From NCBI RefSeq assembly GCF_003050865.1, contig NZ_QAOK01000031.1, positions 1 through 36,913 on the forward strand: a stretch of DNA of 36,913 nucleotides, given 5' to 3'. The notes below the pieces were generated by a model that saw nothing but the letters and a program-made list of their open reading frames with translations, searched no databases and had not been told where the DNA came from. Every line of letters begins with the position of its first letter. The first letter of the stretch is position 1. This DNA comes from Nitrosospira multiformis. GTDB taxonomy: Bacteria > Pseudomonadota > Gammaproteobacteria > Burkholderiales > Nitrosomonadaceae. This document shows positions 1,831 through 18,182 of the stretch, piece by piece. The position numbers and the translations under genes were made by a program.

Positions 1831-3066
1831 ATGACTCAAGATGTAAAGAAAAATCGGTTACTGGTATTGGCAATAGTCGTTATACCTATTCTTGTCAGTT
1901 CCGCAGCGCGAGCCGACGCAGTAACGCACTGGAACCGCGTGGCAGGCGATATTATCGTGGACTCGGGATTGGGCCCGCTACCGGCAGATCGTGCTCTCGC
2001 GATCGTGCAAACCGCGGTATATGAGGCAACAAACGCAATTACCCAGCAATATCCGGCCAGTGATCTCAAGCTGAAAGGCAAGCCGGAAGCCTCGGTTGAG
2101 GCCGCCATTGCAGCGGCAAATCGCGCTACGCTTACAGCCCTGGTACCGGCGCAACGGACAGCTATTGATACTGCCTATCGCCAGGCGCTCACCGCCATCC
2201 CGGACGACATCGCAAGAAGCGATGGTCTTGCGATTGGCGAAAAAGCCGCAGCGGGAATTCTGTCGCAGCGGGCACAGGACGGTGCCGATGCAGGAGAATC
2301 ATATCGCCCGCGCACCTCTCCCGGAGTCTATGTGCCTACTGTAATACCGGAAGCGCCGCACTGGTTGCAGATCAAGCCCTGGCTTATGGACAATCCTGCT
2401 CAATTTCGTCCCGGCCCTCCTCCCCAACTGGAAAGCGAGCTATGGGCACGCGACTATAATGAAGTCAAAGCGCTGGGCGGGAAGCACAGCCAGCGCACTG
2501 CTGCCCAGACCGAAATTGCCCGTTTTTGGGAAGAAGTAATGCCTCCGATCTACCATGGAGTGATGCGTTCGGTTGCCGAAGCACCGGGAAGGGAGATCAC
2601 CCGAAATGCGCGCCTCTTTGCAGCGGCAACCCAGGCTTCGACCGATGCGCTTATAGCGGTATTCGACGCCAAGTATCATTACGGCTTCTGGCGCCCGGTC
2701 ACTGCCATCCGCAATGGCGATCTTGATGGAAACAACGCCACGGAACGGGATCCTTCATGGGTTCCCTTTATCGACACACCCATGCATCCTGAGTACCCGT
2801 GTGCCCACTGCATCGTCGCAGGCGCGGTAGGAACAGTACTGAAAGCAGAGATCGGTGCAGAACCCGTGCCGCCTCTGGCTACTACCAGTCGCGCGGCGGG
2901 CGGCGTGATGCGCAGTTGGAAAAATATCGATGAGGTCATCCAGGAGGTAGCCAACGCACGCATATATGATGGAGTGCATTATCGCAACTCCGGCGAGGTA
3001 GGCACCGCCATGGGCAGGCGAATTGCCGAACTGGCAGTCATGAAATATTTCCGCACTGACCAGTAA
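1831..3066 (+). CDS. Secreted vanadium-dependent haloperoxidase-like protein (PAP2 superfamily)
   Basis: The 411-residue protein starts at ATG 1831 with AAGGAA just upstream and has a Sec signal peptide (basic start, hydrophobic 10-22, cleavage near ARADA at 26-30). The C-terminal half has the vanadium chloroperoxidase/acid phosphatase layout: K281 and R288-P289 in KYHYGFWRP, then HPEYPCAHC at 319-327, then R377 and H383 in ARIYDGVHY. In the family these bind vanadate or phosphate, and the second histidine is the axial ligand. The usual PSGH of the middle box is PCAHC here, as in bacterial vanadium haloperoxidase relatives with variant centres. It should act in the periplasm; whether it oxidises halide or is a phosphatase cannot be told. 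It appears to be a single-gene unit, flanked by the two DnaA-box elements. Confidence 0.88.
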   Translation: MTQDVKKNRLLVLAIVVIPILVSSAARADAVTHWNRVAGDIIVDSGLGPLPADRALAIVQTAVYEATNAITQQYPASDLKLKGKPEASVEAAIAAANRATLTALVPAQRTAIDTAYRQALTAIPDDIARSDGLAIGEKAAAGILSQRAQDGADAGESYRPRTSPGVYVPTVIPEAPHWLQIKPWLMDNPAQFRPGPPPQLESELWARDYNEVKALGGKHSQRTAAQTEIARFWEEVMPPIYHGVMRSVAEAPGREITRNARLFAAATQASTDALIAVFDAKYHYGFWRPVTAIRNGDLDGNNATERDPSWVPFIDTPMHPEYPCAHCIVAGAVGTVLKAEIGAEPVPPLATTSRAAGGVMRSWKNIDEVIQEVANARIYDGVHYRNSGEVGTAMGRRIAELAVMKYFRTDQ

Positions 3067-5933: not shown

Positions 5934-6296
5934 ATGACGAATTCTAATTGTATCCTGCCACAGCATGAAAATCATACCCATCCCCACGGCCCGGAATGCG
6001 GCCACACTGGCGTAGCGCATGATGACCATGTCTGCTACCTTCATGATGGCCATCTGCATTACCCGCACGGCAATCATATCGATGAGCATGTCATAGACGT
6101 CGGCGAGACCAATCCCCAGGACTGTACTCCGGGACATGAATGCGAAGGTCACGCGCAAGGCCATGTACACGGCCCCGACTGCGGACACGAAGCCGTGCCT
6201 CACGGAGACCATGTGGATTATCTGGTCGGGGGCCATCTTCACTATCCCCATGATGACCATTGCGACGATCATGGTCCGGTGAAGACATTGGGGTGA
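5934..6296 (+). CDS. Histidine-rich metal-binding protein with two repeats
   Basis: The 120-residue protein starts at ATG 5934 with AAGGAA 8 bases upstream. About a quarter of its residues are His, with many Asp, Cys and Gly. It holds two copies of a ~35-residue unit, at about 16-52 and 77-113, each with HGP(E/D)CGH, then HxDHVxYL, then GHLHYPH and a His/Asp tail. The units are 61 residues apart. Such repeats usually bind Zn, Ni or Cu. There is no signal peptide or membrane segment, so it is likely a cytoplasmic metal buffer or chaperone. Similar short His-rich proteins occur near metal transporters, but none is adjacent here. No metal-regulator operator was recognised upstream. Confidence 0.85.
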   Translation: MTNSNCILPQHENHTHPHGPECGHTGVAHDDHVCYLHDGHLHYPHGNHIDEHVIDVGETNPQDCTPGHECEGHAQGHVHGPDCGHEAVPHGDHVDYLVGGHLHYPHDDHCDDHGPVKTLG

Positions 6297-6413: not shown

Positions 6414-8399
6414 TCAGATTACGAGCAACGCGGGATGCAGCATTTCGATCTCGTACAGAGGCCGCCCCTGCTGTGGAGGCGAATAAGCGCTGTAACTCGA
6501 AATCACCGAAGGGTCGAGATGACCGACGATCTGCTCCAGATCGGAAAGCCGCAAGCCCTGGCGTACAAGATAAGTAATGTAACTATGCCGGACCGTCTCG
6601 GCGGTGATTTCCTGGGGATCAGGCAATCCCGAATCGATTACGGCGCAAACCAGCGCTGTTGACAGATCGACCCGTGTCTGCGAATCATCCGGATCCCATA
6701 CCGGACGATTGCCAGATTGCTGGAACAAGGATTTGAGCGGATTGCTGAGCGGCACCGTCCTTGGAGATCTTCCGTCTAGGTTGATGACATTGGCACGCTC
6801 GTTGAGCTGATTCGCCTTCAGTGATGCTGCCTCATCGATGTCGAGGCCACTGAGCAGCAAACCGATAAGCTGCTTCCCTTTCAGGCTGGCAGCGTTGATC
6901 AGGGTCCGTAACTGATGGCTCGAAAGTTCCCTGTGCGCCGGTTTTGACAAGGCAAAGTTGGTTTTCTGCTCTAACGGGTCGGCTTTGGCCCCGAGCGCGG
7001 CATGAGGATGATCAATCAGTTCGGCAGCAGGCGGTGTATATCTCTCCACACCGAATACCGCAATGGAAGGCTGTTGTTCCTTTTTTTGGGTCAGATACTC
7101 AAAAACCCACACGCTGATCAACCCCAGCAGCAGGGAACCGGTGAGCGCTATCAAGGCTTCACGACTGTAGTTCGGCCTTACTGGCTCCCTTGACTCATAC
7201 GCCCTGCTGATCACATCGACCTGCGGATATTTGTCCTTGCGGCCGGTTTTCACCTGTACCAGCCGTTCCTGCGTATCCCGATACAGCTTTTCCAGCCCCT
7301 CCAGATCGCTCTTCAACGCCTCGTGCTGGGTAAACTTTGTCGCGAAGAGCGATGCCCGCTGCTTGTGCTCGCCCAATTGTTCGCGAATATCCCTGACAGT
7401 CTGTCGTGCGGCCGCATAATTTACCTCGGCCTCGTTCAAGACTACATCTTGACCGCGCAACCGCTTATTGTTGATAGCAGTCTCGAGTTCCTTGATCTGC
7501 TCAGGGAGAGACTTCAAGTCGGGTTGCAGGTTTAAGTACTCGCGGGTAAATTTTTTATCGAATTCCGTCAGTTTTTCACGTGAATCATGCAGACGCTTCT
7601 CGAGGTCGGCCAGGCTGATTTTCTCGTCGTCTGGAACCACTGCCTTTCCCCGGGCAATTGCGGCCCTGATAGCATCCAGTTGCGCTTTCGCCTTGACTTC
7701 AGCCTCGGAAGCCTTGTTAAGCGACTCGTTCAGCCCCTTCAGCCGGGCCGACGGTTCATTCTCATCGCGCTCTGTCGATAGAATGTTGTTGTTTTCCCGG
7801 AAGGTCTCCAGCGCCGCTCTCGCCGCAGCAACCTTGTCAGCCAACCCTTCCAGCTCATCCTCGACAATACGTTCAGTATTGCTCTTCAAACGTTTTACTT
7901 CTTCCCCTCGCGCTTCCTGGTATACGTCTATCCATGTATTGATGAGCAAAGGCAAAAAGCGGGGATCTGAGCCTTCCGCCGTGACCTCGACGAGGTTGGT
8001 TTCGGGAACAGGCTCGACGGCCAATAAAGTCTGAATATCAGATTCAGTCAACCGATTTAGAGATTTGCCGACGGGAGAAGCCTTCAATTTCGCCAGGGTT
8101 TCGGCAGCAAGCTCCCGTCCCAGCAGGATCTGGCGCTGGATTGCAACGTGCTGGATATCGGCATTATCGCTCTGCTGATCGATCGGTGTCATGGCCGAAG
8201 TAAGCAATGTCGCGCTGCTGCGATAAATTGCCGGCTGGCTGTAAACGTAAGCAAGGCTGATAGCGGCGCTCGTCATAAATACGAGCCCAAAAATATTGAA
8301 CCTGCGGGATTGATACCAAGGGAATTCACTCTTATCAGCAATCCGCCCCATTTGGTGTGAATTGCCCCCAAAATGCAAGTTGACTCTGTTTTTCATCAT
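6414..8399 (-). CDS. GumC/Wzz polysaccharide chain-length protein fused to a degenerate tyrosine-recombinase domain
   Basis: With the start at ATG 8399-8397 (661 aa; an in-frame TTG at 8483 would add 28 residues, ATG 8351 would remove 16) the protein has TM1 at about 34-55, a Wzz-like periplasmic part, long coiled coils at about 165-380, a PNYSREAL-type junction and TM2 at about 411-436. That is the layout of inner-membrane GumC/Wzz proteins that set exopolysaccharide chain length. A cytoplasmic C-terminal region at about 491-640 resembles the catalytic domain of XerC/D-type recombinases: LLLSGLDIDEAASLK, RTVPLS, TVRHSYITYLV, LEQIVGHLD, then SSYSAY. R604, H627 and Y636 have XerD spacing (23 and 9 residues). 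The first Arg is Asp520 and the box-II His is Glu601, so catalysis is unlikely. It is one uninterrupted frame. No other polysaccharide gene is adjacent. The ribosome binding site is weak, so the start is uncertain. Confidence 0.82.
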   Translation of the reverse strand: MMKNRVNLHFGGNSHQMGRIADKSEFPWYQSRRFNIFGLVFMTSAAISLAYVYSQPAIYRSSATLLTSAMTPIDQQSDNADIQHVAIQRQILLGRELAAETLAKLKASPVGKSLNRLTESDIQTLLAVEPVPETNLVEVTAEGSDPRFLPLLINTWIDVYQEARGEEVKRLKSNTERIVEDELEGLADKVAAARAALETFRENNNILSTERDENEPSARLKGLNESLNKASEAEVKAKAQLDAIRAAIARGKAVVPDDEKISLADLEKRLHDSREKLTEFDKKFTREYLNLQPDLKSLPEQIKELETAINNKRLRGQDVVLNEAEVNYAAARQTVRDIREQLGEHKQRASLFATKFTQHEALKSDLEGLEKLYRDTQERLVQVKTGRKDKYPQVDVISRAYESREPVRPNYSREALIALTGSLLLGLISVWVFEYLTQKKEQQPSIAVFGVERYTPPAAELIDHPHAALGAKADPLEQKTNFALSKPAHRELSSHQLRTLINAASLKGKQLIGLLLSGLDIDEAASLKANQLNERANVINLDGRSPRTVPLSNPLKSLFQQSGNRPVWDPDDSQTRVDLSTALVCAVIDSGLPDPQEITAETVRHSYITYLVRQGLRLSDLEQIVGHLDPSVISSYSAYSPPQQGRPLYEIEMLHPALLVI

Positions 8400-8704
8400 G
8401 CCTGCAATTCCCCTGCTCCAGCCGCGACCATGCCATCTATCACCCACACTCCTCCGCGCAATTCTTCCATTGATTCGATACAAATGTCACGCGATAAATG
8501 AAGCTTTTGTACGGTGCCGCACAAACGGGAAAGGGTTCATCCTCTGACAATGGGCCCATCCAAAAAAGCAGCGATATTCATATTATTGTAAAACGCTTGC
8601 TTTAACTTGACGGTTAGCAATCGCACGCTTGATGCACATAGGGTTTGTACCAAAACCGGAACGCAAATCAGAATCAGCCTCTTAATCCTTTCAGGAAACG
8701 CAAA
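8400..8704. other. Divergent intergenic region
   Basis: This ~300-bp region lies between the chain-length protein gene and a short rightward gene. It may encode an N-terminal extension of the chain-length protein as far as 8483 (TTG). No convincing promoter was picked out. Confidence 0.35.
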
Positions 8705-14804: not shown

Positions 14805-17800
14805 TTGTCCCCTGATGGATTCCCGAACTCCGATGATAAAGTTTCTCCATTGCTCAACCGTTATACGATGAGTCGCTCCCCCTGGCTGATCGTCTTGCTT
14901 TACGCCGCTTTATCGATTCTCTGGATTGCTGTTGCGGGTTATCTGATATCGCTCACGCTCGAAGATCCGGTTTTGCGAAGCCGCGCTTATCTGGCAAAGG
15001 AACTGGTTCTTATTGCCATTAGCAGTATCCTGTTTTATGCGCTGCTTAAACTGGGCCGCGACACCCCCATCCGGGAAGGGCGCGCGACAGTCTCGGCTTC
15101 GCCAGGTTTCCGGCTGAACCGGCTGATACTGGCGTTCTTCTCGCTGGCGATGGTGGCGCCCATTACCAGCTTAGTCATTGTAAAAATGTATGGACCGCAG
15201 ATGGAGCGAGGCGCTTATGCTGATCTACAAACGATCGTTGATCTAAAGGCAGAACAGATCGAACTCTGGCTCGCAGAACGACATAACGATGCACAAGCAT
15301 TGATGGCAAGCCAAGCACTCATCGAACGAGTGGTCAATCTCCAGCGAAGAATAGACGGCCATGGAATGGAACTCATCCGTAATCGCCTGGAGGCAGTACG
15401 GCAAGCCTACAGCTACGAATCAGTGATATTGCTTGATGTTGAAAGCCGACCTTTGCTCGTGTTAGGCGAAAAGCGTGAACTGCCATCCGTTACCCGCGAA
15501 TTACTATCCACCACATTACGCACCCATCACATAGAGAGTACGGATTTCTTTCTGGATGAAAACGGAAAAGCGCTGCTGGATATTGCAGTGCCTCTGGTGG
15601 CTGAAACAGCAAATAAGGAACCTGTTGCCGTTGTGCTCTTACGAGCGGATCTGGAGCAATTCCTTCTTCCGCTGGTCAAGAAATGGCCAGGCATCAGCGC
15701 CAGTGGAGAGATACTGCTTGCCGTTCAGAAAGATGAAATTGTCAGTTATCTCAATAAATTGCGCCCCTCTCAACAAACGCACACGGTCGATGGATATCAC
15801 GCGCTTGTCGCCAGCGACAAACTTGCCAGCACTATTGCCACCCGCGACGAAAAACAGGGAACGGTACATGGAATCGACTACCGCGGCGAACAGGTGCTTG
15901 CCGCGTATAGGCCCCTTACTGGTAGCGACTGGCGACTGCTTGCAAAAATTGACCAGAATGAAGTATTGGCACAGTTATGGACCCTTGTATTCTGGATCAG
16001 CGTCGTCATCCTGGTTGCAGTTGCTACGGTAAGCGTCGTGCTGCTGCTGCTATGGCGCCAACAGCAGCGTGCCCATCAGTTGGCGCTGATCGTTCACACC
16101 GCCGAGCAGGATCGCCTCCTCAAGTATTTCTATGACCTGCCATTCATCGGCATGGCAATCACCTCTCCCGACACGAAGCGCTGGCTGCGGTTCAATCATC
16201 AGTTTTGCGAGATGATGGGATACTCAGATGAGGAACTGGCAAATAAAACCTGGGATGAAGTAACTCATCCGGATGATGTCGCTAAAGGCATTCTCGAGCG
16301 CAAGCGCATCATCAGGGGCGAGTCCGAGGGTTATGCGATGGACAAGCGCTTCATTCGCAAGGATGGCTCAATAATCTTAGCCAACGTGGATGTCAAATGC
16401 GTCCGCAGGGAGGATGGCTCGGTGAATTATTTTGTTGTCATGATCCGGGATATTACCGAGCAGGAGCGGCGGAAAGCCGAAATTCTGGCCGCGCGCCGCC
16501 AACTGCAAGCCACACTCGACGCCATTCCCGATTTACTGTTCGAACTCGACGCGGATGGCTGTGTTCACGCGTGGCATTCGGTCCGGCGTACCGAGTTCCC
16601 GAGTGTATCCGGTGAGAGCCTTGTAGGCAAAAAAGTTTCGGATGTTCTCCCGACCGGTGCAGTAGATATTATCCTGTCGGCATTGACGGAGGCGCAGGAG
16701 AAAGGGTTCTCCTCGGGGAAACAATTGGAACTCCGCCTTCCCGGGCGCGAAGACAAGTGGTGGTTCGAACTTTCCGTCTCGCGCAAACATGTCGATACCG
16801 CAACGGGTCCCCGTTTTATCGTCCTAGCGCGTGACATTACAGAGCGCAAGGCATCAGAGCAACGGATACTTCATCTGGCCCATTATGATTCCCTCACCGG
16901 TCTGCCAAACCGCGCCCTCCTGGCCGATCGAATGAGAGTGGCAATCAACCGTGCAGCACGGCAAGCCAAACGCCTTGCTGTACTGTTTGTAGACCTCGAT
17001 CGTTTCAAGGCAATCAATGATTCGCTTGGCCATGATATTGGCGACCATCTGTTAAAGGCTGTAGCGGAACGAATGCAAACCTCGATACGCAGTGTAGACA
17101 CGGTAAGCCGGGTGGGAGGTGATGAATTTGTTGTTCTCCTGAGCGAGATCGAAACTGCAGAGGATGCGGCGCGCGTAGCGCAAAAAATCATAGAGGGTCT
17201 TTCACAACCATACCAGATCGAAAAGCATGAGTTGCTGCTGACTGGAAGCGTCGGCATTTGCATCTATCCCGATAACGGCATGGAACCAAATATCCTCTTG
17301 CGCAATGCGGATGCATCCATGTACACAGCAAAGGAAGCCGGACGCAACCGTTACCAGTTCTATTCGGAAGACATGACGGCCCGGGCGATCGAGCGGCTCA
17401 GCCTGGAACATGATCTCCGCGGGGCGATCGAGCGCGGTGAAATGTTTCTGGTTTATCAGCCGCAGATCGAGCTTGCGACAGGTCGTATTATCGGGGTGGA
17501 GGTGCTGATGCGCTGGCGCCATCCCGCACGGGGATTGATTTCCCCTGTTCGCTTTATTCCCGTTGCGGAGGATACGGGACTGATTCTCTCGATCGGGGAA
17601 TGGGGTTTGCGCGAATCGTGCAGGCAGGCGCGCTCGTGGTACGAGTGCGGATTGCTGAACGCGAGCATCTCAGTCAATGTTTCTGCGGTGCAATTCCGCC
17701 AAATTGATTTTGTTGAAGTCATTGAACATGCGCTTCGTGAATCGGGGTTACCACCCGACAGCCTGGAACTGGAACTTACTGAAAGCGCAGTTATGCAGGG

Positions 17801-18182
17801 TGCGGAACCTGCGCTGAACAAACTGCGCGAACTGGATGCGCTCGGGGTGAAAGTCGCAATCGACGATTTTGGTACGGGTTACTCAAGTCTCGCCTACTTA
17901 CGGCAGTTTACCGTCGACCGCCTGAAAATTGATCAGTCATTCGTGCGCGATGTGCCGGGTAATAATGATGCCGAAGCTATCGCAGCGGCAATTGTGGCAA
18001 TGGGTCTCAACCTGGGCTTGCGTATCATTGCCGAAGGCGTAGAAACGGAAGCGCAAGCGGAATTTCTCCAAAGTGTCTTATGCAAGGAAGGCCAGGGTTA
18101 TCTTTATGCCTGGCCCATGACTGCCGATGAGTTTGAAGCATGGGTAGGCGCGCGGCAAAACCGCGCAGGAAGCACCTCCTAG
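14805..18182 (+). CDS. Membrane-bound PAS-GGDEF-EAL c-di-GMP regulator
   Basis: This 1125-residue protein probably starts at TTG 14805, which has GGGAG 6 bases upstream; ATG 14868 has none. Two TM segments (about 27-50 and 66-83) and a third (106-128) precede a periplasmic sensor region (130-388, dCache-like), then TM4 at 391-417. PAS domains follow at about 430-555 and 560-685. The GGDEF domain (690-855) has the intact GGDEF at 771-775 and an RxxD inhibitory site at 762-765. The EAL domain (865-1115) has E899 in EVLMRW, N958, DDFGTGYSSL at 1020-1029 and AEGVE at 1076-1080. Both synthesis and breakdown of cyclic di-GMP look possible. It likely couples an extracellular signal to biofilm or exopolysaccharide control. 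Confidence 0.95.
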   Translation: MSPDGFPNSDDKVSPLLNRYTMSRSPWLIVLLYAALSILWIAVAGYLISLTLEDPVLRSRAYLAKELVLIAISSILFYALLKLGRDTPIREGRATVSASPGFRLNRLILAFFSLAMVAPITSLVIVKMYGPQMERGAYADLQTIVDLKAEQIELWLAERHNDAQALMASQALIERVVNLQRRIDGHGMELIRNRLEAVRQAYSYESVILLDVESRPLLVLGEKRELPSVTRELLSTTLRTHHIESTDFFLDENGKALLDIAVPLVAETANKEPVAVVLLRADLEQFLLPLVKKWPGISASGEILLAVQKDEIVSYLNKLRPSQQTHTVDGYHALVASDKLASTIATRDEKQGTVHGIDYRGEQVLAAYRPLTGSDWRLLAKIDQNEVLAQLWTLVFWISVVILVAVATVSVVLLLLWRQQQRAHQLALIVHTAEQDRLLKYFYDLPFIGMAITSPDTKRWLRFNHQFCEMMGYSDEELANKTWDEVTHPDDVAKGILERKRIIRGESEGYAMDKRFIRKDGSIILANVDVKCVRREDGSVNYFVVMIRDITEQERRKAEILAARRQLQATLDAIPDLLFELDADGCVHAWHSVRRTEFPSVSGESLVGKKVSDVLPTGAVDIILSALTEAQEKGFSSGKQLELRLPGREDKWWFELSVSRKHVDTATGPRFIVLARDITERKASEQRILHLAHYDSLTGLPNRALLADRMRVAINRAARQAKRLAVLFVDLDRFKAINDSLGHDIGDHLLKAVAERMQTSIRSVDTVSRVGGDEFVVLLSEIETAEDAARVAQKIIEGLSQPYQIEKHELLLTGSVGICIYPDNGMEPNILLRNADASMYTAKEAGRNRYQFYSEDMTARAIERLSLEHDLRGAIERGEMFLVYQPQIELATGRIIGVEVLMRWRHPARGLISPVRFIPVAEDTGLILSIGEWGLRESCRQARSWYECGLLNASISVNVSAVQFRQIDFVEVIEHALRESGLPPDSLELELTESAVMQGAEPALNKLRELDALGVKVAIDDFGTGYSSLAYLRQFTVDRLKIDQSFVRDVPGNNDAEAIAAAIVAMGLNLGLRIIAEGVETEAQAEFLQSVLCKEGQGYLYAWPMTADEFEAWVGARQNRAGSTS

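Follow-up and report, generated by a model that had tools for sequence, protein, structure and literature searches.

A polysaccharide co-polymerase-like protein with a predicted, catalytically degenerate tyrosine-recombinase fold in Nitrosospira and relatives

Introduction

Passages of PMC12004946 describe type 2 polysaccharide co-polymerases (PCP-2 proteins) as acting with a bacterial tyrosine kinase (BY-kinase), fused or separate, or with a pseudokinase. In the PCP-2a protein Wzc a C-terminal tail enters the active site of the neighbouring subunit and thereby keeps the kinase ring together, as stated in a section of PMC8285477, while EpsV of Myxococcus xanthus is thought to work with EcpK, a catalytically dead cytoplasmic partner proposed in part of PMC12004946 to act as a scaffold through contact alone. 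Tyrosine recombinases dock their alpha-N helix either in cis or onto the neighbour (an excerpt of PMC3646895), and the fold is also found without catalytic residues in the phage repressors MrpR/YopR of SPbeta and SroF of phi3T; a positively charged groove in MrpR lies between the core-binding and catalytic domains, according to a passage of PMC10516654. Here we analyse a 36,913-nucleotide stretch of Nitrosospira multiformis (contig NZ_QAOK01000031.1, positions 1 to 36,913; the window), and in it a minus-strand gene whose product joins a PCP-2-like half to a tyrosine-recombinase fold.

Like Wzc, this predicted protein has a first transmembrane helix (TM1), a periplasmic region of long helices, a second transmembrane helix (TM2), a linker and a C-terminal cytoplasmic domain, in that order; unlike Wzc, the cytoplasmic domain has a recombinase fold and not that of a P-loop kinase, and no polysaccharide operon lies at the locus. 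The periplasmic half matches both models of the EpsF/XrtA-type PCP proteins, whose kinase is separate (TIGR03007, E 4.7e-13; EpsF model TIGR03017, E 9.4e-11), but scores far under both equivalog cut-offs, and the true EpsF of the same genome (E 1.4e-206, with kinase EpsG) has 462 residues without such a domain. The likeness to EpsV and EcpK lies in a PCP-2 protein working with a dead cytoplasmic scaffold; EcpK, however, is a separate BY-kinase-like protein, as the relevant part of PMC12004946 describes it, whereas the fusion carries a recombinase fold in one chain. With MrpR and SroF the fusion shares a recombinase fold lacking catalytic residues, yet MrpR represses by binding DNA and has a core-binding domain, which the fusion, predicted to be membrane-bound and with an acidic recombinase-fold domain, lacks. 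With the catalytic domains of XerA, XerD and integron integrases it shares the fold and the order of conserved boxes, but the fusions lack the first catalytic arginine (Arg-I) and the box-II His (75 of 75), as well as the core-binding domain. The parts are of known kinds, and their combination appears to be new. A literature search for a recombinase or integrase domain in a chain-length or co-polymerase protein, with many subscription papers and all bioRxiv preprints outside its scope, found none; an earlier reading of this DNA from sequence alone (the sequence-only reading) had likewise known of no such architecture, although absence from print is not thereby established. In the text of the tyrosine-recombinase survey PMC8138268 covered by a word search, the words inactive, fused, membrane and polysaccharide do not occur.

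Results

Architecture of the fusion protein

The gene lies in a minus-strand open reading frame (ORF) at 6414-8483, which is without internal stop and would encode 689 residues if begun at TTG; the ATG at 8399, the start common to homologues, gives 661 residues. From this ATG the frame is uninterrupted across both halves, as the sequence-only reading, which gave no strand, had claimed. The parts of the gene are as follows.

6414..8399 (stop codon included), minus strand: fused gene for a 661-residue PCP-2-like protein with a C-terminal tyrosine-recombinase-fold domain (open frame, homologue-shared start, domain matches)
8238..8321, minus strand: predicted TM1, about residues 27-54 (helix in the AlphaFold full-length model, predicted TM-score (pTM) 0.33, low overall confidence; hydrophobic stretch)
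7170..8237, minus strand: predicted periplasmic PCP region, about residues 55-410, with alpha/beta base and long helices (profile and fold matches)
7074..7169, minus strand: predicted TM2, about residues 411-442, preceded by a PCP-like motif rich in Pro (helix in the model)
6936..7073, minus strand: cytoplasmic linker, about residues 443-488, predicted disordered (predicted local distance difference test (pLDDT) <50 for 439-488)
6417..6935, minus strand: tyrosine-recombinase-fold domain, residues 489-661, catalytically degenerate
6840..6842, minus strand: D520 at the catalytic Arg-I position (alignment)
6597..6599, minus strand: E601 at the box-II His position (alignment)
6588..6590, minus strand: R604, retained second arginine (Arg-II; alignment)
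6519..6521, minus strand: H627, box-III position (alignment)
6492..6494, minus strand: Y636, nucleophile position (alignment)

An assembly or frameshift artefact was ruled out because 73 of the 75 copies compared are full-length fusions. The concern that the two parts might be separate genes in homologues was likewise dispelled, full-length fusions being present in many independent assemblies and across genera.

Profile matches occur in both halves, in agreement with the earlier proposal of a GumC/Wzz-type half joined to a XerC/D-type C-terminal domain. PF00589 (Phage_integrase; cut-off 27.1 bits) matches the whole protein at E 2.4e-6 and 27.9 bits and the C-terminal piece alone at E 1.4e-7 and 31.9 bits; a profile search finding no recombinase similarity there had been set beforehand as grounds for abandoning the idea, and such grounds are lacking. 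The NCBIfam XerA model also matches the C-terminal part, under its cut-off. When 22 diverse relatives were scanned singly, PF00589 was found at E <=0.1 in 15 and not in the other 7, and in a search of the PDB with a profile of the 22 the C-terminal half finds XerC/D-type chains. The AlphaFold model of the domain alone (pLDDT 81.3) is better than the full-length model (66.6) and matches XerA; in a comparison with VIA entries that covered such folds, the 50 listed comprise recombinases, proteins related to them and a topoisomerase. Profile and model together thus identify a recombinase catalytic-domain fold. Ahead of it no N-terminal core-binding (SAM-like) domain was matched, residues 439-488 being predicted disordered and preceded by TM2, and the C-terminal P-loop tyrosine kinase that is the hallmark of PCP-2a proteins was not found, the C-terminal domain being that of PF00589. 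A mobile-element gene was rejected: there is no plasmid match at E 1e-5, and of the 56 phage records that match the domain the ten listed are annotated as integrases or carry no annotation, with ~29% identity across 66% of its length.

For the N-terminal half, Wzz and GNVR give no match in the window protein alone at E <=1, and each is found in 7 of the 22 diverse relatives at E <=0.1 (best E 1.9e-5 and 0.0012, respectively). With this half, the profile built from the 22 retrieves chains of Wzc (E 1.9e-9) and PslE (1.8e-6) from the PDB, and Foldseek with the full-length model places Wzc at the top (E 1.0e-8) and also returns XerA (1.1e-6). Within the Pro-rich motif, P381, P384 and Y386 (alignment A2 numbering) are invariant in all 19 rows. 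Model, of partly low confidence, and profile agree on two transmembrane helices flanking a long-helix periplasmic region, and support the prediction of an inner-membrane PCP-2-type protein with TM1, long periplasmic helices and TM2.

Loss of catalytic residues

Residues were counted in 75 fusion domains (53 aligned first and 22 picked from later searches) and in 23 genuine recombinase domains, 15 class-wide and 8 from the window's own genome. In the fusion set, L133 and L134 belong to a single genome, the gene of L145 runs off a contig end and that of L146 is split; G076 (L107) has one in-frame TAG in the matched stretch and entered the set with its 655-codon open part. Left out were the PCP-only loci L125-L128, the contig-edge cases L129, G072, G955, G1159 and G1187, the split G1148, and further full-length matches in the family of G397 whose locus was not fetched. 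The 15 class-wide domains are the next-best matches to the fusion profile with a locus, mostly Xer-like and not a random sample; the window's genome has 10 other PF00589 matches, of which 8 were used and L160 and L161, both pieces on contig C44, were set aside.

The Arg-I position holds Arg in 0 of 75 fusions (Thr 36, Ser 22, Asp 9, Ala 4, Asn 2, Gly 2) versus 23 of 23 genuine domains, and the box-II His is found in 0 of 75 versus 22 of 23, with Glu or Asp in 51 fusions. Both residues are therefore lost throughout the fusion family and not solely in the window protein, for which the sequence-only reading had noted their loss and had located D520, E601, R604, H627 and Y636 just as the alignment does. 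Arg-II is kept in 71 of 75 fusions (23 of 23 genuine), box III is His in 16 and Tyr in 37 (His in 21 of 23 genuine), and the nucleophile Tyr is present in 67 (Leu 5, Phe 2, Cys 1) versus 22 of 23, with one gap; this Tyr is common yet dispensable in the fusions. The column chosen for the hairpin Lys has Lys in just 1 of 23 genuine recombinases and is not the right column. The XerD-like spacing noted earlier holds for the window protein: in the genuine XerD-type L076 Arg and His likewise lie 23 residues apart and His and Tyr 9. R604 and Y636 are mostly kept in the family, but H627 is not a family feature. Taken together, the alignments support a loss of catalysis in the recombinase-fold domain. 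In MrpR, substitution of the retained Tyr yields a temperature-sensitive repressor, as reported in a section of PMC10516654, which by analogy may offer a structural reason for Tyr retention in the fusions.

Selection and origin

The ratio of nonsynonymous to synonymous substitution rates (dN/dS) was determined for 10 hand-picked close pairs, all within the window's genus. It was 0.08-0.21 for the domain, 0.06-0.11 for the PCP part and 0.13-0.36 for the linker, which had the highest value of the three in 9 of 10 pairs; these values support purifying selection on the recombinase-fold domain. Co-inheritance of the two halves is indicated by their pairwise identities, which rise and fall together (Pearson 0.85, 1378 pairs from 53 genes). 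In a FastTree phylogeny every one of the 75 fusion domains falls in a single clade, separate from the 23 genuine recombinases (support 0.92). A domain profile searched against 321 class genomes, with the first candidates per genome scored, gave 177-275 bits in five fusion genomes, the window's own included, and <=49 bits in the other 43 scoring genomes, in integrase-like open frames of 219-480 codons; because of this gap, no free-standing close relative of the domain was seen in that set. D589, Y607, Y610, Q614, R617 and P641 are conserved in the fusions and differ from the commonest recombinase residue. Selection, a single clade and conserved residues unlike those of recombinases have the look of a repurposed domain.

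Distribution

The large searches scored the first 3 to 10 candidates per genome. The fusion is carried by 22 of 23 searched genomes of the window's genus, the one without it being 80% complete. Of 125 genomes of the family, 48 match at E 1e-30: these 22 and 26 others, one of which gives a contig-edge piece. The 26 belong to a second genus, probably Nitrosomonas because 7 of 7 of its genomes tested have ammonia-monooxygenase-like genes. Named matching records are from Nitrosospira multiformis (3), Nitrosospira sp., Nitrosovibrio (3) and one Methylococcaceae bacterium. At order level, 11 of 250 genomes match at E 1e-15, three of them partially (PCP-only); one of these three, L150, combines Wzz and GNVR with a kinase-type AAA_31 domain. 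Matches were found in 6 of 369 genomes of the class and 3 of 398 of the phylum, the window's genome and G024 being counted in both, in 7 of 36 genomes of the family of G462 and in 31 of 81 of that of G397, the latter probably methanotrophs because G397 has a PF02461 match.

One genus in G397's family, g585, keeps the PCP half without the domain. In 4 of 4 sampled genomes, which are counted among the 31, the frames (488-504 codons) end soon after the linker; the PCP-only genes L125, L126, L127 and L128 score 442-463 bits to the PCP half, and no frame of at least 90 codons within the stretches fetched contains such a domain. The domain therefore looks like an add-on to a working PCP, and this lineage provides a natural comparison. 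Outside g585, the partial matches at 1e-30 or 1e-25 all lie at a contig end or in a split gene. As for copy number, G1178 has two fusion copies with different neighbours (L133, L134), and G1128 and G1155, which belong to its genus, likewise carry two each. A link to ammonia or methane monooxygenase was rejected: PF02461 occurs in 10 of 17 tested genomes and is absent from the fusion carriers G203, G239, G462 and G833 and from the genome of L039 as searched.

Genomic surroundings

One set of flanking genes recurs in 10 of 11 loci of the window's genus (L065 differs). The recurring flanks encode saccharopine-dehydrogenase-like, FAD oxidoreductase, phosphotransferase-like and HAD-like proteins, joined by LigB-like and intradiol dioxygenases in 8 of 11 loci each according to ORF calls; polysaccharide genes are not among the recurring neighbours in this genus. 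Neighbours in other genera include phosphoenolpyruvate carboxylase, SNF2 helicase, malate synthase, an acetyl-CoA-synthetase-like protein and a transposase, and clustering of neighbours revealed no partner gene common to different genera. Only one of the 17 fusion loci with at least one annotated neighbour (L140/L151) adjoins a clear polysaccharide cluster: in G1175 (L140:9010-19787, L151) genes for an Asn synthase, an epimerase and glycosyltransferases follow directly downstream of the fusion, and an O-antigen-ligase-like gene lies beyond them. Weaker hints of an envelope setting come from G914 (L147), with a transglycosylase upstream and a UDP-sugar dehydrogenase downstream of the fusion, and from L039, where an ABC exporter frame overlaps its end. 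Separately, the g585 PCP-only gene L127 has a family-9 glycosyltransferase ~4 kb away.

The window's genome has an XrtB-type exopolysaccharide (EPS) locus on another contig, with sugar transferase, EpsL, EpsD, EpsE, EpsF, kinase EpsG, exosortase B, glycosyltransferase and flippase. From this and the unrelated neighbours it follows that the fusion is, on genomic evidence, an additional, orphan PCP-2-like protein. The same facts, with one locus in 17 beside a clear polysaccharide cluster, leave the link to exopolysaccharide assembly that had been suggested earlier no more than a possibility.

Discussion

We read the fusion, with a probability of about 0.5, as a PCP-2-type protein whose dead recombinase domain has been exapted as a non-enzymatic protein-protein module. 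The domain would sit in the place of the BY-kinase of PCP-2a proteins and, by analogy, might stabilise or gate the cytoplasmic side of a ring-shaped PCP oligomer, or dock a partner. The route could be a C-terminal helix exchanged with the neighbouring subunit, as between recombinase protomers, which would resemble the tail docking that holds the Wzc kinase ring; the outcome would be a PCP-2 that works without phosphorylation, comparable in this to EpsV and its pseudokinase EcpK. A more specific proposal, possible though doubtful, is that a recombinase domain was domesticated once as a ring-forming PCP part via C-terminal helix passing, giving rise to a kinase-free PCP-2 class in beta- and gammaproteobacterial nitrifiers, methanotrophs and relatives.

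Several observations weigh against a protein-protein module or limit the case for it. In 9 of 10 pairs the domain changes more quickly than the PCP part does, and the C-terminal tail (residues 640-658), which would have to be exchanged, shows no special conservation, its mean entropy being 1.87 bits versus 1.11 in the Arg-II helix and 1.50 in the genuine tail columns; P641 and P656 are conserved, yet 10 of the 23 genuine recombinases likewise have Pro at the P656 position. The full-length model is weak (pLDDT 66.6, pTM 0.33) and superposes poorly on Wzc (TM-score 0.27). Retention of Arg-II and Tyr is unexplained by such a module except as structural. Because most annotated neighbours, in the window's genus and at most other annotated loci, are unrelated metabolic genes, support for a polysaccharide role comes from the fold and from a single locus. 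Finally, we infer oligomerisation and partner docking by analogy with the described proteins.

The domain might instead tether DNA to the membrane, the dead fold anchoring a chromosomal site at the inner membrane or acting as a regulator, in the manner of MrpR/YopR and SroF. We consider this unlikely, and the DNA-binding suggestion of the sequence-only reading is disfavoured, mainly on charge (K+R-D-E over the domain): the fusion domains are negative in 74 of 75 cases (mean -6.1, range -12 to +3; window domain -3), whereas the genuine ones are positive in 22 of 23, comprising 15 of 15 class-wide domains (mean +8.0, range +5 to +13) and 7 of 8 own-genome segments (mean +4.3). The one at -3, L158 (C38:251-799), is a PF00589 protein whose acidic domain sets it apart from the other seven own-genome segments used. 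Because L158 is also acidic, and because these are net charges and not computed surfaces, charge alone is not decisive; it argues against the usual DNA-binding face without proving its absence, and an acidic domain would fit protein contact better than DNA contact. There is, in addition, no core-binding domain, the domain being preceded by linker and transmembrane helix, and Arg-I and the box-II His are replaced, the latter by Glu or Asp in 51 of 75.

Arg-II of recombinases contacts phosphate. The old active-site pocket (E523, R547, R604, Y636) might bind a small phosphorylated molecule, such as a nucleotide, a cyclic dinucleotide, a lipid-linked sugar phosphate or a phosphopeptide, and signal to the PCP half. 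E523, R547 and R604 each occur in 52 of the 53 fusions aligned, the role of R547 in the pocket being our own mapping; E523 is the likely counterpart of E176 of Cre. That residue is listed among the crucial ones in Table 3 of PMC10516654. The same residues are, however, conserved in genuine recombinases (E 23/23, R547 column 18/23, R604 23/23), perhaps partly for the fold, and Arg-I is lost in all fusions; binding in the pocket is conjectural, and such a sensor seems unlikely. That a recombinase fragment was fused by chance behind a PCP gene and has been tolerated as a passenger would account for the lost catalytic residues, the faster evolution of the domain and the PCP-only genes of g585, but as a relic it was rejected on the dN/dS of the domain, and it is made very improbable by a domain that stays open in 75 copies over many genera, by conserved residues that differ from those of recombinases, and by partial matches that outside g585 all reflect contig ends or split genes among the few candidates scored per genome. 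An active membrane-anchored recombinase or nuclease is hardly credible: Tyr and Arg-II stand at recombinase spacing in the window protein, but Arg-I and the box-II His are absent in 75 of 75, Tyr is replaced in 8 of 75, the core-binding domain is missing, and the genome has other PF00589 proteins, two of them XerC/D-like at 175 and 166 bits.

If a non-enzymatic protein-protein module is the right reading, it would suggest that the essential task of the cytoplasmic partner in PCP-2 systems can be shape and contact and not phosphorylation, and a membrane protein would join MrpR and others in which the tyrosine-recombinase fold serves without catalysis. For annotation, PF00589 matches in such fusion genes should not be taken as markers of integrases or mobile elements.

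Other features of the window

A promoter and terminator scan gave 5 promoter-like sites versus 2.3 expected and 3 terminator-like sites versus 3.5 expected. At 5934-6296 lies a His-rich plus-strand ORF of 120 residues, possibly metal-binding, without Pfam match and overlapped by a minus-strand ORF of similar length; by ORF calls it is present in 5 of 11 loci of the genus, and an opposite-strand frame in 4 others. The protein encoded at 1831-3066 is PAP2/vanadium-haloperoxidase-like, just under Pfam cut-offs, and is present in 9 of 11 genus loci, and a large protein with Cache-like, PAS, GGDEF and EAL domains is encoded at 14805-18182.
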